Of a DNA stretch of 35,780 nt, positions 23,375 through 35,780 are shown in pieces. The position numbers and the translations under genes were made by a program. Below the pieces are notes generated by a model, which saw nothing but the letters and a program-made list of their open reading frames with translations, was not told the origin of the DNA and did no database searches. Source of the DNA: a virus. The stretch is taken from positions 1-35,780 of the IMG/VR virus record IMGVR_UViG_3300040960_002556; one strand, written 5' to 3'. The stretch's first letter is position 1, and every line of letters begins with the position of its first letter.

Positions 23375-23690
23375 GAGAGCGCTCCTCTCGGTCGAGGAAG
23401 CGGACGTCATAAGCGACGACGCGCCAGTCCTTCCGCTTCATCCCCTCCTTTTCCCATTCGTTGCTTTTGAGGCGACCGCGCACGAAGACGCGAGCCCCTT
23501 TGCGAAGATAGCGCTCGCAAGTCTGGGCAGCTGCGCTCCAGACTTCGACCCGATGCCACTCGGTCTTCTTCTGCTCTCCCTTGCCGATCGAGGTCGCGAC
23601 AGAGAGGACGCAAAACTCTTTACCCGCTGCGGTCCGCTTCAGTTCAGGGTCTTGGCCTAGACGACCAAGAAGGACAACATCATTAACCAA
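23364..23690 (-). CDS. ssb: Single-stranded DNA-binding protein, 108 aa
   Basis: The sequence fits the bacterial OB-fold SSB: VNDVVLLGRLGQDPELKRT at the N-terminus, FCVLSVAT, TEWHRVEVW, then CERYLRKGARVFVRGRLKSNEWE and WRVVAYDVRFLD. It coats single-stranded DNA in replication and recombination. The C-terminus ends DREERSHGR with no acidic DDDIPF-type tip, so the usual partner-recruiting tail is missing. The best start is a TTG at 23690, five nt after AAAGGGGGA, giving the normal SSB N-terminus; ATG 23741 would add 17 residues unlike SSB. It overlaps the stop of the GHKL gene. Confidence 0.85.
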   Translation of the reverse strand: MVNDVVLLGRLGQDPELKRTAAGKEFCVLSVATSIGKGEQKKTEWHRVEVWSAAAQTCERYLRKGARVFVRGRLKSNEWEKEGMKRKDWRVVAYDVRFLDREERSHGR

Positions 23691-25401
23691 GGAATCCCCC
23701 TTTAAGCTCTCGACGGAGAGCGATTTCAATCGCGTGCTCAATCCCGAAGAATCCGAGCGAGATCATGGTGAGAGCTCCGTCGGATAGAAGCTGCTCATTG
23801 ACTCCGCGCACTCCCCAGCGCGCGACCTTCTTATGACGGAGAGCGTGTGAGATCTTCGTCGCGTAGTCAGCTCCAATCGTGTTGTGGATAACGCCCGCGC
23901 CGAGCTCTTGATACTCCTCACCGATCCGACCAGCGAAGCGCTGCTTGATCTCTGTGAACACTGAATAAGCGGCATTTAGGAAAATGCACCCGTCGGGATA
24001 CTCTCGCCCAGGCGGAACCCAATAACCGACACTATCTTCCTCGTGATATCCATCCCATCGCCACTCTGGAAATCCGGTCTTTCTCTTTCGGTTGTCATGA
24101 CCGGGCGGTGTTTTGTTTTGGCCGGTGACGCCTTCGAGCTCGCCCTGCTTTGGCTTGGCCTTCTTCGCTGCTGTCCTCTTCTTCGCGCCGCCTGGACCGA
24201 GGACATCATTAAATCGATTGCCGTATTCGCTCGCGAGGCGCTTCCGATACTCGTCGATCTCTAGATTATTCGCCTTCTCCGCGATGAGCTTCCGTTGTTC
24301 GTTCAGGAGATACTCTGGGAGATTCGCTCGGAAGTATTCGCCGAAGGTGGCGAAGTCGGGAGCCTCATGAGTGTCGCTATTCTTGAGAGCGGTTCGCGCG
24401 GCGTTCTGAGTCAAACTGCTATCTTTGACCACGATATAAAGGCGAGACCAGATACTCTTTTGATGGATGCCAAAAGCCCGCCATGTCTGCGGATGGCTCC
24501 TGTGCTGGAAGAGTTCCCCCTTATTTTCAAGCGCTATAAAACCGCTCCCGAAGCTATACTGTCTCATGCTCTTATTGAACTTCAGTAAGAACCATTCGAT
24601 CGACACTTGGTCATCTCGGACCAAAAACCCAGAAGACTCGATATACTTTTCGTCTAAGCCAGATAGACTCTTGACTAGGTCGGTCATTTGATTGTCGCGC
24701 GATTCACCGTATGCGAAACGCGAGATCTGTATAGGTACAGTTAGCTCTTTGTACCTCCTCGACAAATATCTACTGTATTCCTCCTTGGAGGCTCTTTCTT
24801 TTAAGATCTGCGGATTATAAGTGTCCTCAAGCTTCTTGTTCCCCAAGAGCAGGACAGCGGATCCGCTCGCGTGATTCCAGTCTTCTCGCAAGAGACGAAA
24901 GTCGACCCCATACTCGTAGCCCACTTCTTCATAGTACTGATCGAGGGGTAGAACTTCGACGACGTCCTCTTCTTCGTCCACGAACTCGCGCGCACCATAG
25001 ATTCCAGAGCGCTGCTCATGAAGCCAGACCATCGCGCCTGGATCGTCTTCGGAAGTCCATGAGACGAAGACGACGCCGAGCTTGTTCCAGGGGATCGTCG
25101 AGGTCTTCGCGCCGATCCCATAGTTCTTGTCGACTCCGACCTCTTTCCCGCTTGAGGAAAACTTGTTTAAGAACTCACCGAGCTCCTCGACGCTCATCCC
25201 CTTGCCATCGTCTTGGATGAGGAAGCGCTTCACCTTATACATCTCGAAGCCCTGCCTCTCATAAGAGATCTTGATCTTCGAGGCGCCTGCTTCGATCGAG
25301 TTCTGGACGAGCTCGCGGACGAACTGAAACTTGTCCGAGTCCGAGTAGATAATGTCGACGAGATTATTCACGCCGGCCTTGCCGATACGCATATCTCCCA
25401 T
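23683..25401 (-). CDS. GHKL-superfamily ATPase of unknown function, 572 aa
   Basis: Residues 20-110 carry the Bergerat ATP-binding motifs: an N-box with Glu30 and Asn34 (FVRELVQNSIEAGASKIKI), G1 with Asp64/Asp65, Gly66 and Gly68 (IQDDGKGM), and G2 around 94-100 (YGIGAKTS). This resembles Hsp90, MutL, MORC and gyrase-B ATPases, which clamp on ATP binding. The middle includes an arginine/serine switch-like region (NAARTALKN), and the linker at about 395-430 is Lys/Pro-rich. The C-terminal 140 residues are unlike known nuclease or protease domains that I recognise. It heads the SSB operon. Possibilities include DNA processing or defence interference; the role is unknown. Confidence 0.75.
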   Translation of the reverse strand: MGDMRIGKAGVNNLVDIIYSDSDKFQFVRELVQNSIEAGASKIKISYERQGFEMYKVKRFLIQDDGKGMSVEELGEFLNKFSSSGKEVGVDKNYGIGAKTSTIPWNKLGVVFVSWTSEDDPGAMVWLHEQRSGIYGAREFVDEEEDVVEVLPLDQYYEEVGYEYGVDFRLLREDWNHASGSAVLLLGNKKLEDTYNPQILKERASKEEYSRYLSRRYKELTVPIQISRFAYGESRDNQMTDLVKSLSGLDEKYIESSGFLVRDDQVSIEWFLLKFNKSMRQYSFGSGFIALENKGELFQHRSHPQTWRAFGIHQKSIWSRLYIVVKDSSLTQNAARTALKNSDTHEAPDFATFGEYFRANLPEYLLNEQRKLIAEKANNLEIDEYRKRLASEYGNRFNDVLGPGGAKKRTAAKKAKPKQGELEGVTGQNKTPPGHDNRKRKTGFPEWRWDGYHEEDSVGYWVPPGREYPDGCIFLNAAYSVFTEIKQRFAGRIGEEYQELGAGVIHNTIGADYATKISHALRHKKVARWGVRGVNEQLLSDGALTMISLGFFGIEHAIEIALRRELKGGFLG

Positions 25402-26257: not shown

Positions 26258-26462
26258 TCGCCTCCGCGTCTCGTCGATCCATTGGCTGGAGCGCTTCGCA
26301 TAGTTCGATGACGCGGTCGAGGTATCCGGTCGGCGCATCGAGTGACAGACGCTCTTGGACCTTGCGGAGCTCCGCGCGCGCTCTATGCAGCTTGGCGGAG
26401 TGACTAGGGAGATAGATCGAGATCCCTTGAGCTTGAGCGGCGAGGATCCGATCGTCACTCAT
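26214..26462 (-). CDS. Hypothetical protein, 82 aa
   Basis: The ORF MSDDRILAAQAQGISIYLPSHSAKLHRARAELRKVQERLS... is helical and charged, without membrane segments. I choose ATG 26462 because it overlaps the 3' end of the terS-like gene by 8 nt, a coupling arrangement; the frame is open further upstream but antisense-like in composition. It overlaps the 3' end of thyX on the other strand. It may be a terminase accessory protein by position. I do not recognise a family. Confidence 0.6.
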   Translation of the reverse strand: MSDDRILAAQAQGISIYLPSHSAKLHRARAELRKVQERLSLDAPTGYLDRVIELCEALQPMDRRDAEAITLGPSDIPAPEER

Positions 26463-26880
26463 CGTCGCTCTCCTCTTCGTCGGTCTCGCGGAGCTGCGCG
26501 AGCATCGACAGCACCTCTTTGGTCCCGTCGCTCTTCTGCTCCTGACTGATCTGGATCTCTCGCTTCTCGCTCCAGCGATCAGGGTGACGCCTGGCGAGTA
26601 GCCACGCCGCCGCGCGCCAGTCACCTGACGAGCCTTCGAGCGCCGCGCGCCTCATGACGGTGACGAGCGAGACCTCCGCCAGCGCTTGAGCCTCGCGAAC
26701 CTCGACCGCGAGCTTAAGGTGGAGCTCCGAAGCGTCGGGCTCTTGGGATCGCCTGAGCCAGTTTCGGAGAGTCATCCGGTGAATCCCCGCCGCTTCCGAA
26801 GCAGCTTCGAGGGAGACGCCTTCAGCGAGTCGTCGGCAGATCGTATCGATCGCCTCTTCGGTCAATTTGCTCGCCGGCAT
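26455..26880 (-). CDS. terS: Terminase small subunit-like protein, 141 aa
   Basis: The N-terminal half is a homeodomain-like helix-turn-helix: KLTEEAIDTICRRLAEGVSLEAASEAAGIHRMTLRNWLRR (residues about 5-45). The middle fits small terminases: ALAEVSLVTVMRRAALEGSSGDWRAAAWLLARRHPDRWSEKREI. The C-terminus is acidic (RETDEEESDDE). Such proteins recognise the packaging site and stimulate TerL. I start at ATG 26880 (MPASKL), with a GGGG tract upstream; ATG 26916 would add 12 residues. It is 5 kb from terL and downstream of dnaB, an unusual separation. Confidence 0.75.
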   Translation of the reverse strand: MPASKLTEEAIDTICRRLAEGVSLEAASEAAGIHRMTLRNWLRRSQEPDASELHLKLAVEVREAQALAEVSLVTVMRRAALEGSSGDWRAAAWLLARRHPDRWSEKREIQISQEQKSDGTKEVLSMLAQLRETDEEESDDE

Positions 26881-27147
26881 AGCTACCCCGCGCGCGCGCG
26901 TTGATTGATAAAACACTTCTCCGGAGTAGATTCTCTCTCATGAACACCCTTTACTCGCCCGCTGGGAAAAGTTGATAGACAACTGGACCCTTAAGGGTCG
27001 GTTAAGGAACCGGAGAAGCGCCTTATAATAAGAAACGCCGCTTGCCCTTGTAAAGAGCTCGCGGCGCCTCCGATCACACATACATCGATTTTCAGGTCCG
27101 TCAGGGTTTGAAAATGTCGACTCTCGTCGACTCGATGAGAGGTCAGG
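26881..27147. other. Noncoding gap between dnaB and terS with two palindromes and a hairpin
   Basis: No ORF in this 267-nt gap looks real. It contains GACCCTTAAGGGTC, a perfect 14-bp palindrome (26986-26999), followed at once by the small hairpin CGGTT-AAGG-AACCG (26999-27012). On the minus strand a CGCCGC/GCGGCG stem (27066-27061 with 27041-27036) is followed by TTTCTTATTAT, a weak terminator for dnaB. The palindromes could be an operator for terS or part of the packaging site. Confidence 0.5.
27024..27066 (-). terminator. Weak candidate rho-independent terminator after dnaB
   Basis: Read on the minus strand, a six-base-pair stem CGCCGC (27066-27061) with GCGGCG (27041-27036) and a 19-nt loop is followed by the T-rich TTTCTTATTAT. 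The stem is short and the loop long, so efficiency is doubtful. Confidence 0.35.
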
Positions 27148-28473
27148 CTACCACCCGTTCTTCTCGTAGTCACTCGAATAATAGTCGACCGCATAGAAGC
27201 GGACGGTCTCACCAGAGAAGGCGAGCTTCGTCGTTCCGGTTCGTCCGCTTCGGTTCTTTGCGATGATCACCTCGGCGAGACCCTTATCCTCACTCTCTTG
27301 GTGATAGTATTCGTCGCGATAGACAAAGAGCACCATGTCGGCATCTTGCTCGATTGATCCGCTCTCGCGCAGATCAGAGAGGAGAGGTCGCTTGTTAGGT
27401 CGACTCTCGACGCCGCGATTGAGCTGACTTAAGCAGATCACTGGACAGTCGAAGTCCTTCGCGAGCTCCTTAAGCGATCGCGAGATCTCGGAGACCTCTT
27501 GCTCTCTAGATCGGCGCGCGCCCTTCTTGCTCCCTCCCATGAGCTGGAGATAGTCGATGACGACCATCCCGATCTCGATCTGTTTACTCTGGAGGAGTCG
27601 AAGTTGACCCTTGATATAGCTGACGCTCGATCCCGCACTGTCATCTACCCAGAGCTTGTTATCCTTGATCGACTCCGCCGCGCTGACGAGGTGGGGGATC
27701 TCGTCGGTCTTGACCGTCGCCTCGTCGATGCGCTGGACGGAGACGCCAGAGTAAGAGGAGAGAAGGCGCTGGCCTATCTGCTTCTTTGGCATCTCCAAGC
27801 TGAAGAAGGCGACGTGCTCCTTGAGAGAAACGGCGCTTGCGATGTTGAGCGCGAGCGCAGTCTTCCCCATCGCGGGACGCGCGGCGAGGATATAGAGCGC
27901 GCCTGGCTTGAAGCCGCCGATGGATTTGTCGAGGGAGGAGATCCCGCTCTTTAAGCCGGTCGTCTCTCCGCTCTTCTGGATCCGCTCGATATCGTCGATC
28001 GCCTCTTCGACGGGTCCGCTGATGAGCTCGAGGCCGTTCCGGTTTTGATGTGAGCTCGCGCCGAGAGAGAGGAAGGTCTCTTGAGCTTTCGCGATGAGCT
28101 CTTCGTTCTCGACGTCTCCCTCGGTGAACCATCCCGCGACCTGATGAATCGCCGCCTCGATCTGGCGCCGCGTTCCGCTCGTCTTGAGCTTGTCAGTTAG
28201 ACCGCTTGTCCCAATCGGGATATGAGACGCGACCTGAAGAAAGCGCTCCTCATTTACTTCGCCCTTGCTTTGAAGGTGGGAGAGGACGTCGGTCGCATAG
28301 GTCGGCTTCCCCTTCTCGACGAGCTCCCCGATCGCTCCCCAGATCTGGCGATGAAGCGGGTCGGTAAAGTCAGCGGCGGAGAGAGTCGCGCGCGCCTCAA
28401 GATAGCCTTTGATGTCGACCATCGCGCCGCCGAGAAGCGCCGCCTCTGCGTTTAGCTGATGAGTGTTGCTCAC
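27148..28473 (-). CDS. dnaB: Replicative DnaB-type helicase, 441 aa
   Basis: The protein has the DnaB N-terminal helical domain (EAALLGGAMVDIKGY, DFTDPLHRQIWGAI) and the RecA-like domain with Walker A ARPAMGKTA (near 199), GFKPGALYILAARP, FFSLEMP, Walker B VVIDYLQLM and the CLSQLNRGVESRPNKRPLLSDLRESGSIEQDAD motif. It unwinds DNA ahead of the fork. The start is a GTG; that at 28473 overlaps the loader stop as GTGA, and another GTG lies one codon upstream (28476). It forms a loader-helicase pair with the DnaC-like gene. Confidence 0.95.
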   Translation of the reverse strand: MSNTHQLNAEAALLGGAMVDIKGYLEARATLSAADFTDPLHRQIWGAIGELVEKGKPTYATDVLSHLQSKGEVNEERFLQVASHIPIGTSGLTDKLKTSGTRRQIEAAIHQVAGWFTEGDVENEELIAKAQETFLSLGASSHQNRNGLELISGPVEEAIDDIERIQKSGETTGLKSGISSLDKSIGGFKPGALYILAARPAMGKTALALNIASAVSLKEHVAFFSLEMPKKQIGQRLLSSYSGVSVQRIDEATVKTDEIPHLVSAAESIKDNKLWVDDSAGSSVSYIKGQLRLLQSKQIEIGMVVIDYLQLMGGSKKGARRSREQEVSEISRSLKELAKDFDCPVICLSQLNRGVESRPNKRPLLSDLRESGSIEQDADMVLFVYRDEYYHQESEDKGLAEVIIAKNRSGRTGTTKLAFSGETVRFYAVDYYSSDYEKNGW

Positions 28474-29312
28474 CACTGCACACCCTTCGAGCGCTGGCTC
28501 TTGCCGGTGAAGTGATGAACTAAGCGCTTTCCTTCTGTCCCTTCGATGAGTCGGTCCTTGATCCGTCTATCGAGGAAAGAGCCTAAGCGCTCCCATCCGA
28601 TATCAGTGGCGAGGACGAGCGCTTGTCCAGATTGCCAGGCATGGTGGAGGAGTTCGTTGATGGTTGCCTTCTCCCAGTCGGTCTGGCGCCCATAGCCGAT
28701 CTCATCGAGGAAGAGAGCTCTTGAGCCGGTGACGCGCTCGACCCGCTTATGCGGATCGTCAAAGCCCGCCTTGACCTTAGAGAGATAGTGAGGTTGGGAG
28801 ATATAGTTCACCCGCATCGATCCGCCTTGAGAGATCGCCGCGAGATAGGCCATCGCATAAAGAAGGTGAGTCTTGCCGGTCCCTGGATCGCCGACAAGGA
28901 TAAGAACTTTACGCTCTCCCTCGGAGAGAGCCTTGAGGAAGTATTCAACTTTCCCGACGAGCTCTTGACCTTCGATCTTCCAGTCATAGTTCGCGTGATT
29001 CTTTTCGGCTGCCTCGACTGGCAGCTTCATAGCCTTGATCGAGGAGAGACGCTGGTTGGCTTTCCCGCAAGGACAGAGGCGAGCGCATCCTTGGTTAGCT
29101 TTGAAGTGAAGGCCGTTCTCGGAGCGAATACAGTCGCTCTTGCAGTTAGGGAGAAGATCGACCGTGGTGATCTCCTTTCCCCTGATCACTTGCTCGACCA
29201 AGCGAGAATTAGGAACTACTCCATCCACAGCGGGACACGGTGGCCGATTGTCCGGAGCGTTCTTAGCGAGAGCTTTGAGGGTGTCGAGTGTTCTTTGTAG
29301 ATCCAGATTCAT
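28470..29312 (-). CDS. DnaC-like helicase loader ATPase with cysteine cluster, 280 aa
   Basis: The AAA+ core has Walker A GDPGTGKT (141-148), Walker B ALFLDEIG (199-206), and ATDIGWERLGSFLDRRIKDRLIEG with the usual sensor and arginine positions. Upstream is a cluster of Cys57, Cys61, Cys76, Cys80 and Cys82 (CKSDC, CARLCPC) that could bind zinc. It would load the DnaB helicase at the origin. It lies between the initiator-like gene and dnaB, and its stop overlaps the dnaB start. Confidence 0.85.
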   Translation of the reverse strand: MNLDLQRTLDTLKALAKNAPDNRPPCPAVDGVVPNSRLVEQVIRGKEITTVDLLPNCKSDCIRSENGLHFKANQGCARLCPCGKANQRLSSIKAMKLPVEAAEKNHANYDWKIEGQELVGKVEYFLKALSEGERKVLILVGDPGTGKTHLLYAMAYLAAISQGGSMRVNYISQPHYLSKVKAGFDDPHKRVERVTGSRALFLDEIGYGRQTDWEKATINELLHHAWQSGQALVLATDIGWERLGSFLDRRIKDRLIEGTEGKRLVHHFTGKSQRSKGVQW

Positions 29313-29323
29313 CGTCGGGCTCC

Positions 29324-29857
29324 TTAGTAGTTCTCAAGGAAGTTCATGAAGTCGTCGAAGCGGTCCTCTTCTTGGCTCGCGCGCTGTTTGGGTCGACTTG
29401 GATTTGAGAGGGAAAGAGAAGAGGGAGAAGTAAGAGAAGTATTGTGGTCCGTTTTCGGACGGGGGGTGGTCTGTTTTCGGACGGGGGGTGGTCCGTTTTC
29501 GGACGGGGGGTGGTCCGTTTTCGGACCGGTCTGTTTTCGGACCGGTCTGTTTTCGGACCGGTCTGTTTTCGGCCCAGTCACTTCTGACCGGACCCAAGCT
29601 GACGCGTCGAAGTAGTCCCCCTGGATGAAGCCGAGCTCTTCCAACTTCTTCTTGGTCTTCTTCGCTGCGGTCTGCCCTCGACCGATGGTGCGTCTGATAT
29701 GCGCGGCGATCACTCCTCGGCACTTGAGCCGTCGAGTATTCCAGTCAGTGTGATAATAGAGCTCGATTGCTGCGCAGCGCTCTAGCGGGTTCAAGCGCAC
29801 GTCTTGAAGGATTCCTCTTATATGCTCCTCGACTGGAGCGTAAGGCGGACTAGCCAT
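29324..29857 (-). CDS. Replication initiator-like helix-turn-helix protein, 177 aa
   Basis: The product begins MASPPYAPVEEHIRG. Residues about 15-85 look like a winged-helix DNA-binding domain (LNPLERCAAIELYYHTDWNTRRLKCRGVIAAHIRRTIGRGQTAAKKTKKKLEELGFIQGD). Residues 95-145 are low-complexity (TGPKTDRSEN, PVRKQ) and arise from an iterated DNA sequence. The C-terminus (EEDRFDDFMNFLENY) is acidic, perhaps binding the helicase loader. I choose ATG 29857 because GGAGG lies 4 nt upstream; ATG 29896 is in the operator. It precedes the loader and helicase, like lambda O before P. Confidence 0.75.
   Translation of the reverse strand: MASPPYAPVEEHIRGILQDVRLNPLERCAAIELYYHTDWNTRRLKCRGVIAAHIRRTIGRGQTAAKKTKKKLEELGFIQGDYFDASAWVRSEVTGPKTDRSENRPVRKQTGPKTDHPPSENGPPPVRKQTTPRPKTDHNTSLTSPSSLSLSNPSRPKQRASQEEDRFDDFMNFLENY
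29445..29574. repeat. Seven iterons inside the initiator gene: candidate replication origin
   Basis: Units 1-3 have a 22-bp period (29445, 29467, 29489) and each contains GTYYGTTTTCGGAC followed by a G tract. The fourth (29511) lacks the G tract, and units 5-7 follow at 16-bp spacing (29527, 29543, 29559). The core GTCCG-TTTT-CGGAC is itself a dyad. Neither 22 nor 16 is a multiple of three, so the units are translated in shifting frames, implying selection on DNA rather than protein. Next to it, 29401-29441 is a nearly pure purine run on the plus strand, which could be the unwinding region. This is analogous to lambda ori in gene O. Confidence 0.75.
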
Positions 29858-29946: not shown

Positions 29947-30117
29947 ATGGCCATCAAGAAGCTCGTTTCAATCAACTTCGATCCGGAGACGCTCGCGCTC
30001 CTCGACTCCTTCGTGGCCAAGCGCCGCGCCGCTGGCGAGGAAACCTCTCGCTCTCAAATTGTCCGCAAGCTCTTGAGAGCTGCTATCGCGATGGAGAACG
30101 CCCGCTATGAGCATTAA
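29947..30117 (+). CDS. Ribbon-helix-helix (Arc/CopG-like) regulator, 56 aa
   Basis: The short ORF encodes MAIKKLVSINFDPETLALLDSF..., a clear ribbon-helix-helix: strand KKLVSINF, helix DPETLALLDSFVAKRR, turn with Gly30, second helix TSRSQIVRKLLRAAIAM. A strong AAAGGAGG precedes the ATG by 7 nt. It is the first gene of the rightward early block, next to a 26-bp palindrome, so it probably represses its own promoter and perhaps the replication promoter. Its stop overlaps the next start by 11 nt. Confidence 0.8.
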   Translation: MAIKKLVSINFDPETLALLDSFVAKRRAAGEETSRSQIVRKLLRAAIAMENARYEH

Positions 30118-30599: not shown

Positions 30600-31421
30600 A
30601 TGAGTATCACCACAGAGAAACTCGCACAAGACAAGGCGATGGCGGAAGCGCTCTCCGCTTCACGTTTCGCGAAGGGGATGAGCCCAGCGGATATTCTCTT
30701 CGCTCACTATGCCGTTGGTCAGCCGAGAGGCTGGAACATGGCTCAAACAGTACAGAATGTTCACCTCATGAGAGGTGATAAGCTATCGGAGCACGCGACA
30801 GTTCAGTGGGCTGATGTCCTCGGCTCCGGTCTGGTCGAGGAGCTCGAATATACAACGTGGACGCCGGAGAGAGTCTCGCTTCGAGTGAAGCGGAAGGGGC
30901 TCAAGGCTATGTCCTTCAGTTGGACGATCGAACAAGCTCGCCGCGCGAACCTGGCGAACTCAAACACATGGAAGCAATATCCAGAGCGGATGCTCGCCGC
31001 TCGTCTCCATACTGAAGTGGCGAGCGTCCTCTTTCCAGATATCGTCTGCCAGAACTCCGGTGCGAATACCTATTCAACCGAAGAGGCCGCGTTCTTCGAC
31101 TCGCGCGATCAAGACAAAGTCGCGGAGACCATCAACGTCCCCGAGCTCGCGCCGACGGAAGAGAGCGCGCCGCCTCGACCAGCGCCAGCGCCAGCGCCAA
31201 AGAAGAACGCGCTCGACGAGCTCCGCGAGCGACTCGCTGACATGGGGATCCCCAACGATGACGCGCGGGTCTATCTCCAAGGGAAGAAGATCGCGGCGCC
31301 GACGACGAGCGACGAGGTCGAGGCGATCCTCGATGAACACTTCTCCATTGATTCCCCCTTCTTTACGCTTCACCCTCACCTTCTAGGTGATTCACAAGAA
31401 CTAAACTTCGGAGAGCTTTGA
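30600..31421 (+). CDS. RecT-like single-strand annealing protein, 273 aa
   Basis: The central region matches the family: VQNVHLMRGDKLSEHATVQWADVLGSG, then AMSFSWTIEQARRANLANSNTWKQYPERMLAARLHTEVASVLFPDIV, with the conserved tryptophan, Tyr-Pro and the Met-Leu-Ala-Arg run. These proteins anneal complementary DNA strands in recombination-dependent replication. The C-terminal part is a Pro/Ala linker (PPRPAPAPAPAPKK) leading to a small domain (LDELRERLADMGIPNDDARVYLQG). AAGGAG lies 7 nt before the ATG. No exonuclease partner is obvious nearby. The assignment is from pattern similarity, moderately sure. Confidence 0.65.
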   Translation: MSITTEKLAQDKAMAEALSASRFAKGMSPADILFAHYAVGQPRGWNMAQTVQNVHLMRGDKLSEHATVQWADVLGSGLVEELEYTTWTPERVSLRVKRKGLKAMSFSWTIEQARRANLANSNTWKQYPERMLAARLHTEVASVLFPDIVCQNSGANTYSTEEAAFFDSRDQDKVAETINVPELAPTEESAPPRPAPAPAPKKNALDELRERLADMGIPNDDARVYLQGKKIAAPTTSDEVEAILDEHFSIDSPFFTLHPHLLGDSQELNFGEL

Positions 31422-34393: not shown

Positions 34394-35780
34394 CTAGATA
34401 ATGTGCCAGTTCGTTCCGTCCGTTGTCAGCGTATAGGCCGAATACTGGACAGAAAGAACCTGTGAAGCCGCCCCGTCGATCGTCCCGCTCGCGGGTGAGA
34501 TCGTGACGTTTGCAGTACCTAGCCGCTTGATGTTGACCTTATAGCCGCTGTTTCCGGTAACAGTGGGGAGCGTGATCGTAACAGCGCTCGCGCCATTTGA
34601 GACGAGATAAATATCTTCGAGGGTTCCCGCCGCTGGATTGCTGATCGTGCTATTCGTTCCGCTTGAGTCTGTGGTGACTGTCGGACGAGAAGCGCCTGGA
34701 AGGTTCGTCAGCTGTGAGCCGTCGACCGCTGGAAGACGAGAAGAGCCGTCAAGCTGAACTATCTGATTCGCTCCGGTTCCGACGTCAACATTGAGCGTCG
34801 AGGTCGCGCCAGTTCCCGAAAGGGTCAAGCCGGTTCCGTCGATGTTCAACGTCGTGTCGTCGGCGTAAATGTTGACCGCTCCGGTTGCACCGTTGACGCT
34901 TGTCACTGGAGACGACGGCAGGTTCGTCAGCTGTGAGCCGTCGACCGCTGGGAGACGCGAGCTCGCGTCAAGCTGAACTAGCTGATTCGCTCCCGTCCCG
35001 ACGTCCGCATTAAGCGTCGAGGTCGCTCCGGTCCCGCTTAGAACCAGACCAGTCCCGTCGATGTTCAAGGTGCTATCGTCGGCGTAGATATTCACGACTC
35101 CCGTTGCCCCGTTGACGCTCGTCACTGGCGCCGCTGGGAGGTTGGTCAGCTGTGAACCGTCGACAGCAGGCAATCGCGCCGAGCCGTCGAGCTTAACGAT
35201 CTTATTCGCTGTCGTTCCGCTGTCCACGTCGAGGGTCGACGTCGCGCCCGTTCCGCTGACGACGATCCCGTCGCCGGCAAGATTTAAGGTCGCGTCGTCC
35301 GCGTAAAGATTAACCGCTCCGGTTGCACCGTTGACGCTTGTCACTGGCGCCGACGGAAGGTTAGTCAGTTGACTACCATCGACAGCGGGAAGACGAGACG
35401 AGGCGTCAAGCTGAACGAGCTGATTTGCGCCCGTCCCGACGTCCGCATTAAGCGTCGAGGTCGCTCCGGTTCCGCTCAAAACTAGGCCGGTTCCGTCGAT
35501 GTTCAACGTCGTATCATCAGCGTAGATATTCACGACGCCGGTCGCTCCGTTGACGCTCGTCACTGGAGCGCTCGGAAGGTTGGTCAGTTGGCTACCATCA
35601 ACCGCTGGAAGGCGTGAGCTCGCGTCAAGTTGAACGATCTGGTTCGCTCCCGTCCCGACGTCAGCATTAAGAGTCGACGTTGCGCCAGTCCCTGATAAGA
35701 CCAGACCAGTCCCGTCGATGTTCAGTGTCGTGTCGTCTGCGTAGATATTGACCGCGCCGGTTGCGCCGTTGACTGAAGTC
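34394..35780 (-). CDS. Repeat-rich tail fibre, C-terminal part (continuation from position 1)
   Basis: This is the remainder of the fibre gene that starts at 1118. Five more repeat anchors lie at 35768, 35549, 35330, 35111 and 34892, again 219 bp apart. The last repeat is followed by a unique domain of about 100 residues (beginning SRPTVTTDSSG, ending TDGTNWHII), probably the distal tip. No internal start is needed: the GTG at 35563 lies within a repeat and the frame is open through 35780. Joined directly, the two parts give 834 aa; with the 30 missing bases restored, 844 aa. Additional full repeats may have been lost in assembly. Confidence 0.8.
   Translation of the reverse strand, partial: TSVNGATGAVNIYADDTTLNIDGTGLVLSGTGATSTLNADVGTGANQIVQLDASSRLPAVDGSQLTNLPSAPVTSVNGATGVVNIYADDTTLNIDGTGLVLSGTGATSTLNADVGTGANQLVQLDASSRLPAVDGSQLTNLPSAPVTSVNGATGAVNLYADDATLNLAGDGIVVSGTGATSTLDVDSGTTANKIVKLDGSARLPAVDGSQLTNLPAAPVTSVNGATGVVNIYADDSTLNIDGTGLVLSGTGATSTLNADVGTGANQLVQLDASSRLPAVDGSQLTNLPSSPVTSVNGATGAVNIYADDTTLNIDGTGLTLSGTGATSTLNVDVGTGANQIVQLDGSSRLPAVDGSQLTNLPGASRPTVTTDSSGTNSTISNPAAGTLEDIYLVSNGASAVTITLPTVTGNSGYKVNIKRLGTANVTISPASGTIDGAASQVLSVQYSAYTLTTDGTNWHII
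34690..35780. repeat. 219-bp tandem coding repeats, right array
   Basis: Units are anchored at 34892, 35111, 35330, 35549 and 35768. The unit anchored at 35330 is type A (NLAGDGIVV, LDVDSGTTAN) and the others are type B, so type A is not confined to the N-terminal end of the protein. The last full repeat ends near 34690, where the unique C-terminal domain begins. Confidence 0.9.

Follow-up and report, generated by a model that had tools for sequence, protein, structure and literature searches.

The 35,780-nucleotide stretch of viral DNA analysed here (the window) very probably contains a replication origin of the iteron type that lies within a small initiator gene of a phage, melts at an adjoining tract, and is served by a DnaC-like helicase loader together with a phage DnaB. 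This arrangement is known from phage lambda and some plasmids and is seen here in an uncultured phage; no title or abstract found in the literature concerns this phage, and the general architecture is already in print. The relevant features of the window are the following.

29324..29857, minus strand: initiator-like gene, 177 aa from an ATG at 29857 with AGGAGG just upstream
29391..29444: 54-bp tract, pyrimidine-rich on the coding strand and purine-rich on the plus strand, identical in the relative L023; candidate DNA unwinding element
29446-29574: array of seven dyad units, with plus-strand starts at 29446, 29468, 29490, 29512, 29528, 29544 and 29560
29446..29526: tract-proximal sub-array, units 29446, 29468, 29490 and 29512, at 22-bp intervals and separated on the coding strand by runs of C
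29512..29574: tract-distal sub-array, units 29512, 29528, 29544 and 29560, 16 bp apart and abutting
28470..29312, minus strand: DnaC/DnaI-like AAA+ helicase loader (phrog_50, E 5e-28; IstB_IS21 in Pfam; DnaI/DnaC models below their cut-offs)
27148..28476, minus strand: DnaB-like replicative helicase (phrog_19, E 1e-105; DnaB_C in Pfam)
26455-26916: small terminase gene, 2.5 kb from the array

Genome context

The two ends of the window (1 and 35780) lie 30 bp apart in the near-identical contigs L092 and L100, so the window represents a nearly complete circular phage genome. The profile matches confirm the gene order read in the initial annotation, in which the array-bearing gene stands just upstream of the loader and then DnaB, and its length of 177 aa for the product fits the ATG behind AGGAGG; the longest open reading frame extends to 29896 and would encode 190 aa. 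The cumulative GC skew, which had been proposed as a check on the origin, has no minimum at the array (the plain minimum is at 31409 and the detrended one at 27679); the curve is roughly flat from about 27 to 34 kb and is uninformative on the origin. Elsewhere in the window, the minus-strand ORF 34394-35563 consists of four near-identical blocks of about 70-75 aa each (PVTSVNGATGAVN...) and is perhaps tail-fibre-like, and the 572-aa minus-strand ORF 23683-25401 has a start that reads like a GHKL ATPase and has only weak PHROG matches.

Anatomy of the array and tract

The array lies in the 3' half of the gene, and on the coding strand each unit is a dyad of the form GGTCYG-AAAA-CRGACC. Six of the seven match GTCYGTTTTCGGAC exactly and the unit at 29560 has one mismatch; the inner Y/R pair is perfectly paired in three units and places C opposite A in four. 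Successive units are 22, 22, 22, 16, 16 and 16 bp apart, which bears out the seven dyad cores at 22-bp and then 16-bp spacing within the gene that were initially described; the repeat core given there is likewise real, except that its "YY" should read CY. Each spacing leaves a remainder of 1 on division by 3; the units are therefore read in rotating frames and give the peptides PKTD, SEN and VRKQ, as had been noted, and all three frames of the gene strand are open across the array region. The iterons of lambda are also read in different frames; the argument from frame is therefore sound, yet the feature is not unusual. Chance does not account for the repeats: the gene contains seven copies of the 14-mer with at most two mismatches, against no more than two in 300 dinucleotide shuffles of the gene and no more than five in 300 synonymous-codon shuffles that encode the same protein.

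Directly downstream of the array, in the sense of the gene, is the pyrimidine-rich tract. The purine-rich character attributed to it on the plus strand holds, since the 40 bp at 29400 include 36 purines, the maximum in the window. Its predicted stability is low; 0.4% of window stretches are less stable at a length of 40 bp, 0.9% at 60 bp and 7% at 100 bp.

Tandem dyads are also well suited to a dimeric repressor, and the units could in principle serve as an operator array through which the initiator itself, or the product of a divergent gene, represses the replication operon (autoregulation or silencing). A candidate for such a divergent gene is the 56-aa plus-strand ORF 29947-30117, which starts divergently from the initiator gene at 29947 and reads like a ribbon-helix-helix protein (MAIKKLVSINFDPETLALLDSF...). 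We consider this improbable, because the array is about 280 bp inside the gene rather than at a promoter, the tract that it adjoins is unusually weak, and the same place is the origin in lambda O and in RepA_N genes (PMC5703833).

Conservation in relatives

A search of viral contigs found the N-terminal domain of the initiator-like protein at four loci, L001 through L004. The first three are identical to one another in this region and L004 (on the same contig as L021) has diverged, but it retains all seven units with the same spacing, as well as the tract. Between the window and L004 there are 24 substitutions in the 321 bp of the gene before the array (7.5%; 17 of them synonymous), four in the 130 bp of the array, none in the following 71 bp, and 12 in the 51 bp of the short C-terminal part, where 21 additional bp are present in L004 only. 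Gene positions 375-522, 148 bp of array plus tract, have no substitutions at all; at the upstream rate such a stretch would arise with a chance of about 1e-5, and by our arithmetic about eight synonymous changes would be expected in it. The four changes in the L004 array are at unit positions 3, 5, 12 and 5, of which that at position 3 restores the consensus and the other three fall on the Y/R positions. This pattern of changes, and the 148 bp free of them, is what selection on a binding site would be predicted to look like, and it agrees with the initial annotation's view that the array is conserved as DNA.

More distant relatives were found by searches with the loader (L011, L012 and L013) and with DnaB (L023). 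All four contigs are cut and begin inside the initiator gene, and the start of the array is visible in L013 alone. The units of L011 are the same as those of the window, and those of L012 and L023 are of the TCCAAAAAYGGA type, recurring every 22 bp in L023 with spacers rich in C. In L013 there are just two copies of TGTCA-CTAC-TGACA, at a distance of 18 bp. The repeats of all four precede the tract and occupy the same place. As far as GCGCGCGAGC, the tract matches that of the window at 62 of 69 positions in L011, 68 of 69 in L012 and 52 of 68 in L013, so that the most different unit and the most different tract are both found in L013. Loader DNA identities to the window are 69%, 69% and 70%, respectively, and the piece between tract and loader is 42-44% identical in these three. 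In L023 the 54-bp tract block is identical to the window's letter for letter, though the loader protein is just 46.5% identical. The tract and the habit of placing dyads before it thus appear to outlast the proteins, and the half-site appears to be exchangeable; the frozen tract could, however, partly reflect recombination between phages instead of selection.

The initial annotation had named relatives with the gene but no repeats as a finding that would count against an origin. Nine contigs among the matches listed have a DnaB at least 48% identical to that of the window, and repeats are present in all eight that reach this part of the gene (L001-L004, L011, L012, L013 with its two copies of another dyad, and L023); the ninth, L022, begins inside the loader gene. 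We note that TCGACCCAAACAGCGCGCGAGC (window 29375-29396), just past the tract, is exactly present in L012 and L013 and could be a module junction or an origin element; a similar sequence, CGCGCGCGAG, follows the array in L104.

The array might instead be kept for a useful peptide at the protein level (PKTD/SEN/VRKQ), and it is true that the reading frame is open throughout and that L023 and the window share the frame in which the tract is read. Rotation of the units through three frames means, however, that successive units encode different peptides; two of the four L004 array changes alter residues and keep the DNA pattern, and 148 bp lack even synonymous changes, so we give this explanation very little credence. 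Hairpins in the transcript that act as terminator, attenuator or stabiliser are similarly hard to credit. Each unit can be read as a short stem with an AAAA loop, but the C-A mismatch falls within that stem in four of the seven window units and in three of the seven L021 units, and scans of the window found no Rfam family (at gathering scores) and no tRNA.

The initiator-like protein

The protein comprises an N-terminal domain (putatively a winged helix-turn-helix), an iteron-encoded linker and a short C-terminus, with only about 40 residues after the array. It has no match in Pfam at E values up to 1 and none in NCBIfam. The PHROG "replication initiation" profile phrog_270 matches the whole protein at E 4e-4 and the first 106 residues alone at E 0.16, so the match depends on the iteron-encoded part and does not establish the family by sequence. 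No match was found by phmmer against the PDB, by tblastn against named phages, or by tblastn of the first 106 residues against plasmids (all at E up to 10).

Structure prediction gave poor models (pLDDT 52 for the full protein and 64 for the N-terminal part alone); the latter has helices followed by a short hairpin, and fold searches with the models gave no hit within an E cut-off of 0.001 (the best had E 6.9 and 3.3). The helix-turn-helix of the initial annotation is weakly suggested, by this moderate N-terminal model and by short profile alignments. In one such alignment IRRTIGRGQTAAKKTKKKLEELGFI of the window protein is paired with IAEMLDKGQTAIKAALNELDAAGLL of a RepA_N element (E 0.006 for a single comparison, probability 6%). 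Because Pfam and NCBIfam matches are lacking and PHROG and helix-turn-helix support is weak, membership in the lambda O or RepA_N family is not claimed.

Occurrence of the unit elsewhere

Pattern scans, which were derived from the window's own unit and so are not an unbiased census and are silent on the frequency of other iteron types, found two adjacent window-type units at ten stretches of viral contigs, all ten in initiator-like genes. Five are kin of the window, and five belong to another phage group (L093, L094, L095, L098 and L099). Like the window's gene, those of the latter group contain units in the same region, here three of the GTCCGAAAACGGAC type spaced by 22-23 bp, whose two reading frames give PKTD, SEN and PKTD; in L094 one of the three is a variant. 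They differ in that protein similarity is limited to the final part of the N-terminal domain plus the peptide that the iterons encode (BLASTP of the window protein against L137, the L093 gene, gives E 6e-5 for a single comparison), in a longer C-terminal part, and in an A+T-rich stretch after the array that lacks the window's pyrimidine tract.

A looser pattern, three units of GTCNNAAAANNGAC, was scanned in viral and genome contigs. The viral contigs gave 15 stretches on 14 contigs; the array is inside an initiator-like gene on ten (the contigs of L092, L096, L097, L100, L011, L093, L095, L098, L099 and L104/L106) and outside one on four (L101, L103, L105 and L102). The initiator-like gene of the L104/L106 phage contig has GGTCGG-AAAA-CCGACC units spaced by 16 and then 21 bp. 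The genome contigs gave 29 loci, 22 of which carry one RepA_N-type protein in two versions that are 72% identical; its type is assigned from HMM analysis of one member (L131; PF06970, E 1e-14) and from solved RepA relatives. At seven loci (L109, L110, L114, L120, L123, L132 and L133) no initiator ORF overlapping the array was found.

Several of these loci merit separate mention. At L102:9727-9830 an array of GTCCAAAAAAAGAC units overlaps none of the ORFs found and is followed at about 0.4 kb by an ORF resembling that of a winged helix-turn-helix protein, possibly a case of the same kind of unit upstream of, and not inside, an initiator gene. TGTCAAAAAACCGACA-type units form a common array at L101:2533, L103:1005 and L105:3831, where the strand concerned has no ORF; in L103 no replication gene was recognised next to the array. 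Among L107-L135 the RepA_N-type element protein is letter-identical in many records, whose names point to various Firmicutes, a Fibrobacter MAG and a Bifidobacterium, implying recent spread or assembly contamination. Finally, in a Bacteroidales MAG (L133:989) GTCTCAAAACGGAC / GTCAAAACGGAC units lie in a long ORF that reads like the exonuclease VII large subunit, a similar-shaped repeat outside any replication initiator.

Tandem arrays can arise by slippage, and the repeat could be recent and without function. There is little to recommend this here, as the diverged L004 retains the full set of seven units with their mixed 22/16 spacing as well as the tract, and the same unit recurs at the same place in initiator-like genes from another phage group. 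Repeat arrays also occur at packaging and partition sites; a pac/cos or partition site is the least likely of the explanations considered, since the small terminase gene is 2.5 kb away and no partition gene was found among the neighbours examined.

Survey of DnaB loci and named phages

A search with DnaB found at least 79 loci, and 63 of those listed, the window relatives L014 and L021 among them, were surveyed for arrays in upstream ORFs. Nine loci were left out because their match begins no more than 223 bp into the contig (L022, L025, L029, L030, L040, L049, L056, L069 and L073), as were four further pieces of window kin (L017-L020) and three kin cut inside the array (L011, L015 and L016); scanned separately, the last three have at most two copies at that setting. 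Among the matches listed, 17 of 63 loci have an array of at least three units in an upstream ORF, compared with one of 315 codon-shuffled regions; because repeat arrays are also present in eight of 50 downstream control regions, and because the 17 include several that are peptide repeats preserving the frame or that belong to other genes, a general enrichment is suggestive and not convincingly shown.

One gene each was examined in named phages, with lambda as positive control, in which the array was recovered. Pseudomonas phage psageK9 has an array, Marinomonas phage P12026 only a 14-bp repeat, and KS9 no array in the one gene examined. The loader of psageK9 is the best-ranked named relative of the window loader, and gene 51 directly before it contains three CACGAAGCGTGC dyads, 21 and 22 bp apart. 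It differs from the window in its half-site, in that gene 51 is annotated as hypothetical, and in that the two loaders are 29% identical.

Proposed mode of initiation and its implications

We suggest that each GGTCYG-AAAA-CRGACC unit is recognised by the N-terminal domain of the 177-aa protein, probably in dimeric form so that each half-site receives one subunit. Once occupied, the units would make up a compact nucleoprotein complex whose strain on the tract at 29391-29444 would open it, the DnaC-like loader from the next gene would place the phage DnaB on the opened strand, and replication would start at the array. The array-encoded peptide would be mainly a flexible, dispensable linker, and this would allow the DNA to be conserved as binding sites while the units run through three frames.

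The window thus offers a defined candidate origin for a group of uncultured phages, for which no close named initiator relative was found, and a natural case in which binding sites apparently dictate part of a coding sequence, since tract and array outlast the surrounding proteins. In the series formed by the window, L004, L011, L012, L013 and L023 the iteron type shifts, its place stays and the tract is largely kept; the set should be useful for studying co-evolution of initiator and origin and the escape of phages from incompatibility. Two features may be of specialist interest, the mixed phasing of 22 and 16 bp and the combination of a frozen tract with an exchangeable iteron type.

A more speculative reading, which we hold to be possible but on balance doubtful, is that GTC-N-S-AAAA-S-N-GAC dyads are one ancient recognition site used by the initiators of dissimilar replicons (the window phage, the L093 group, contig 3300021387_001634 and the Firmicutes RepA_N elements), and that the iteron-plus-tract block is an exchangeable phage origin module, in which half-sites have been swapped (GGTCYG to TCCA to TGTCA) and the melting tract kept, once letter for letter. 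If there were such an ancient site, matching half-sites would accompany a shared "GQTA" start of the recognition helix.

Comparison with known embedded origins

The window has the features of an embedded origin, namely tandem dyads in coding sequence after the putative DNA-binding domain, an adjacent easily melted tract, and loader and helicase genes downstream; the in-gene dyads, weak tract, gene order and DNA-level conservation fit it to the architecture of lambda and RepA_N replicons. Lambdoid origins have been described as lying in the middle of O and as combining iterons with an AT-rich region that is crucial for unwinding (PMC7466680), and O dimers on the iterons as forming an O-some that is joined by a P-DnaB complex (PMC3985674). 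In the lambda O record the four annotated iterons are ATCCCTCAAAACGAGGGA-like dyads round an A-tract, 20, 24 and 23 bp apart, in frames 0, 2, 2 and 1. The window shares with lambda, as far as described in these sources (PMC7466680, PMC3985674), the position of the iterons in the initiator gene after the N-terminal domain, dyads round an A-tract, spacing that does not preserve frame, and a helicase-loading gene (P in lambda) next to the initiator gene. It differs in half-site sequence, in having seven units in two phasings (22 and 16 bp), in a pyrimidine-rich coding strand beside the iterons where that of lambda is purine/A-rich, in encoding a DnaC-like loader plus the phage's own DnaB, and in the length of its protein (177-190 aa, against 299 for lambda O). 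The "lambda-like embedded origin" of the initial annotation is therefore supported in its position, its dyads round an A-tract, its weak tract and its conservation at the DNA level; kinship with the lambda O family is not, as PF04492 (Phage_rep_O) matches lambda O at 6e-36 and has no match to the window protein.

The origin of the RepA_N plasmid pSK41 is reported to lie within the rep coding region, where the linker derived from it is dispensable; proteins with the central domain deleted can rescue replication, and replacement of the A+T-rich part of the pSK41 box lowers binding tenfold (all PMC5703833). The DNA-binding domain and origin of pPR9 are described in the same source as replaced together (PMC5703833). 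Most characterised RepA_N iterons are said to include inverted repeats that converge on a poly-A tract (PMC7145576). Like these pSK41-type systems, as portrayed in the two accounts (PMC5703833, PMC7145576), the window has, in the part of its initiator gene that encodes the central linker, iterons whose inverted halves meet at an A-tract. The RepA_N element L131 has four in-gene units (such as GGTCGGAAAAGCGACC) with the GTC..GAC half-site, read in changing frames, and there is a short helix-turn-helix similarity that includes GQTA. In contrast to RepA_N proteins, the window protein has no PF06970 match, and its approximately 40 residues after the array leave no room for a C-terminal domain of the RepA_N type; the window also differs from RepA_N elements in encoding loader and helicase alongside. 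In shape the unit is as close to RepA_N plasmid origins as it is to lambda.
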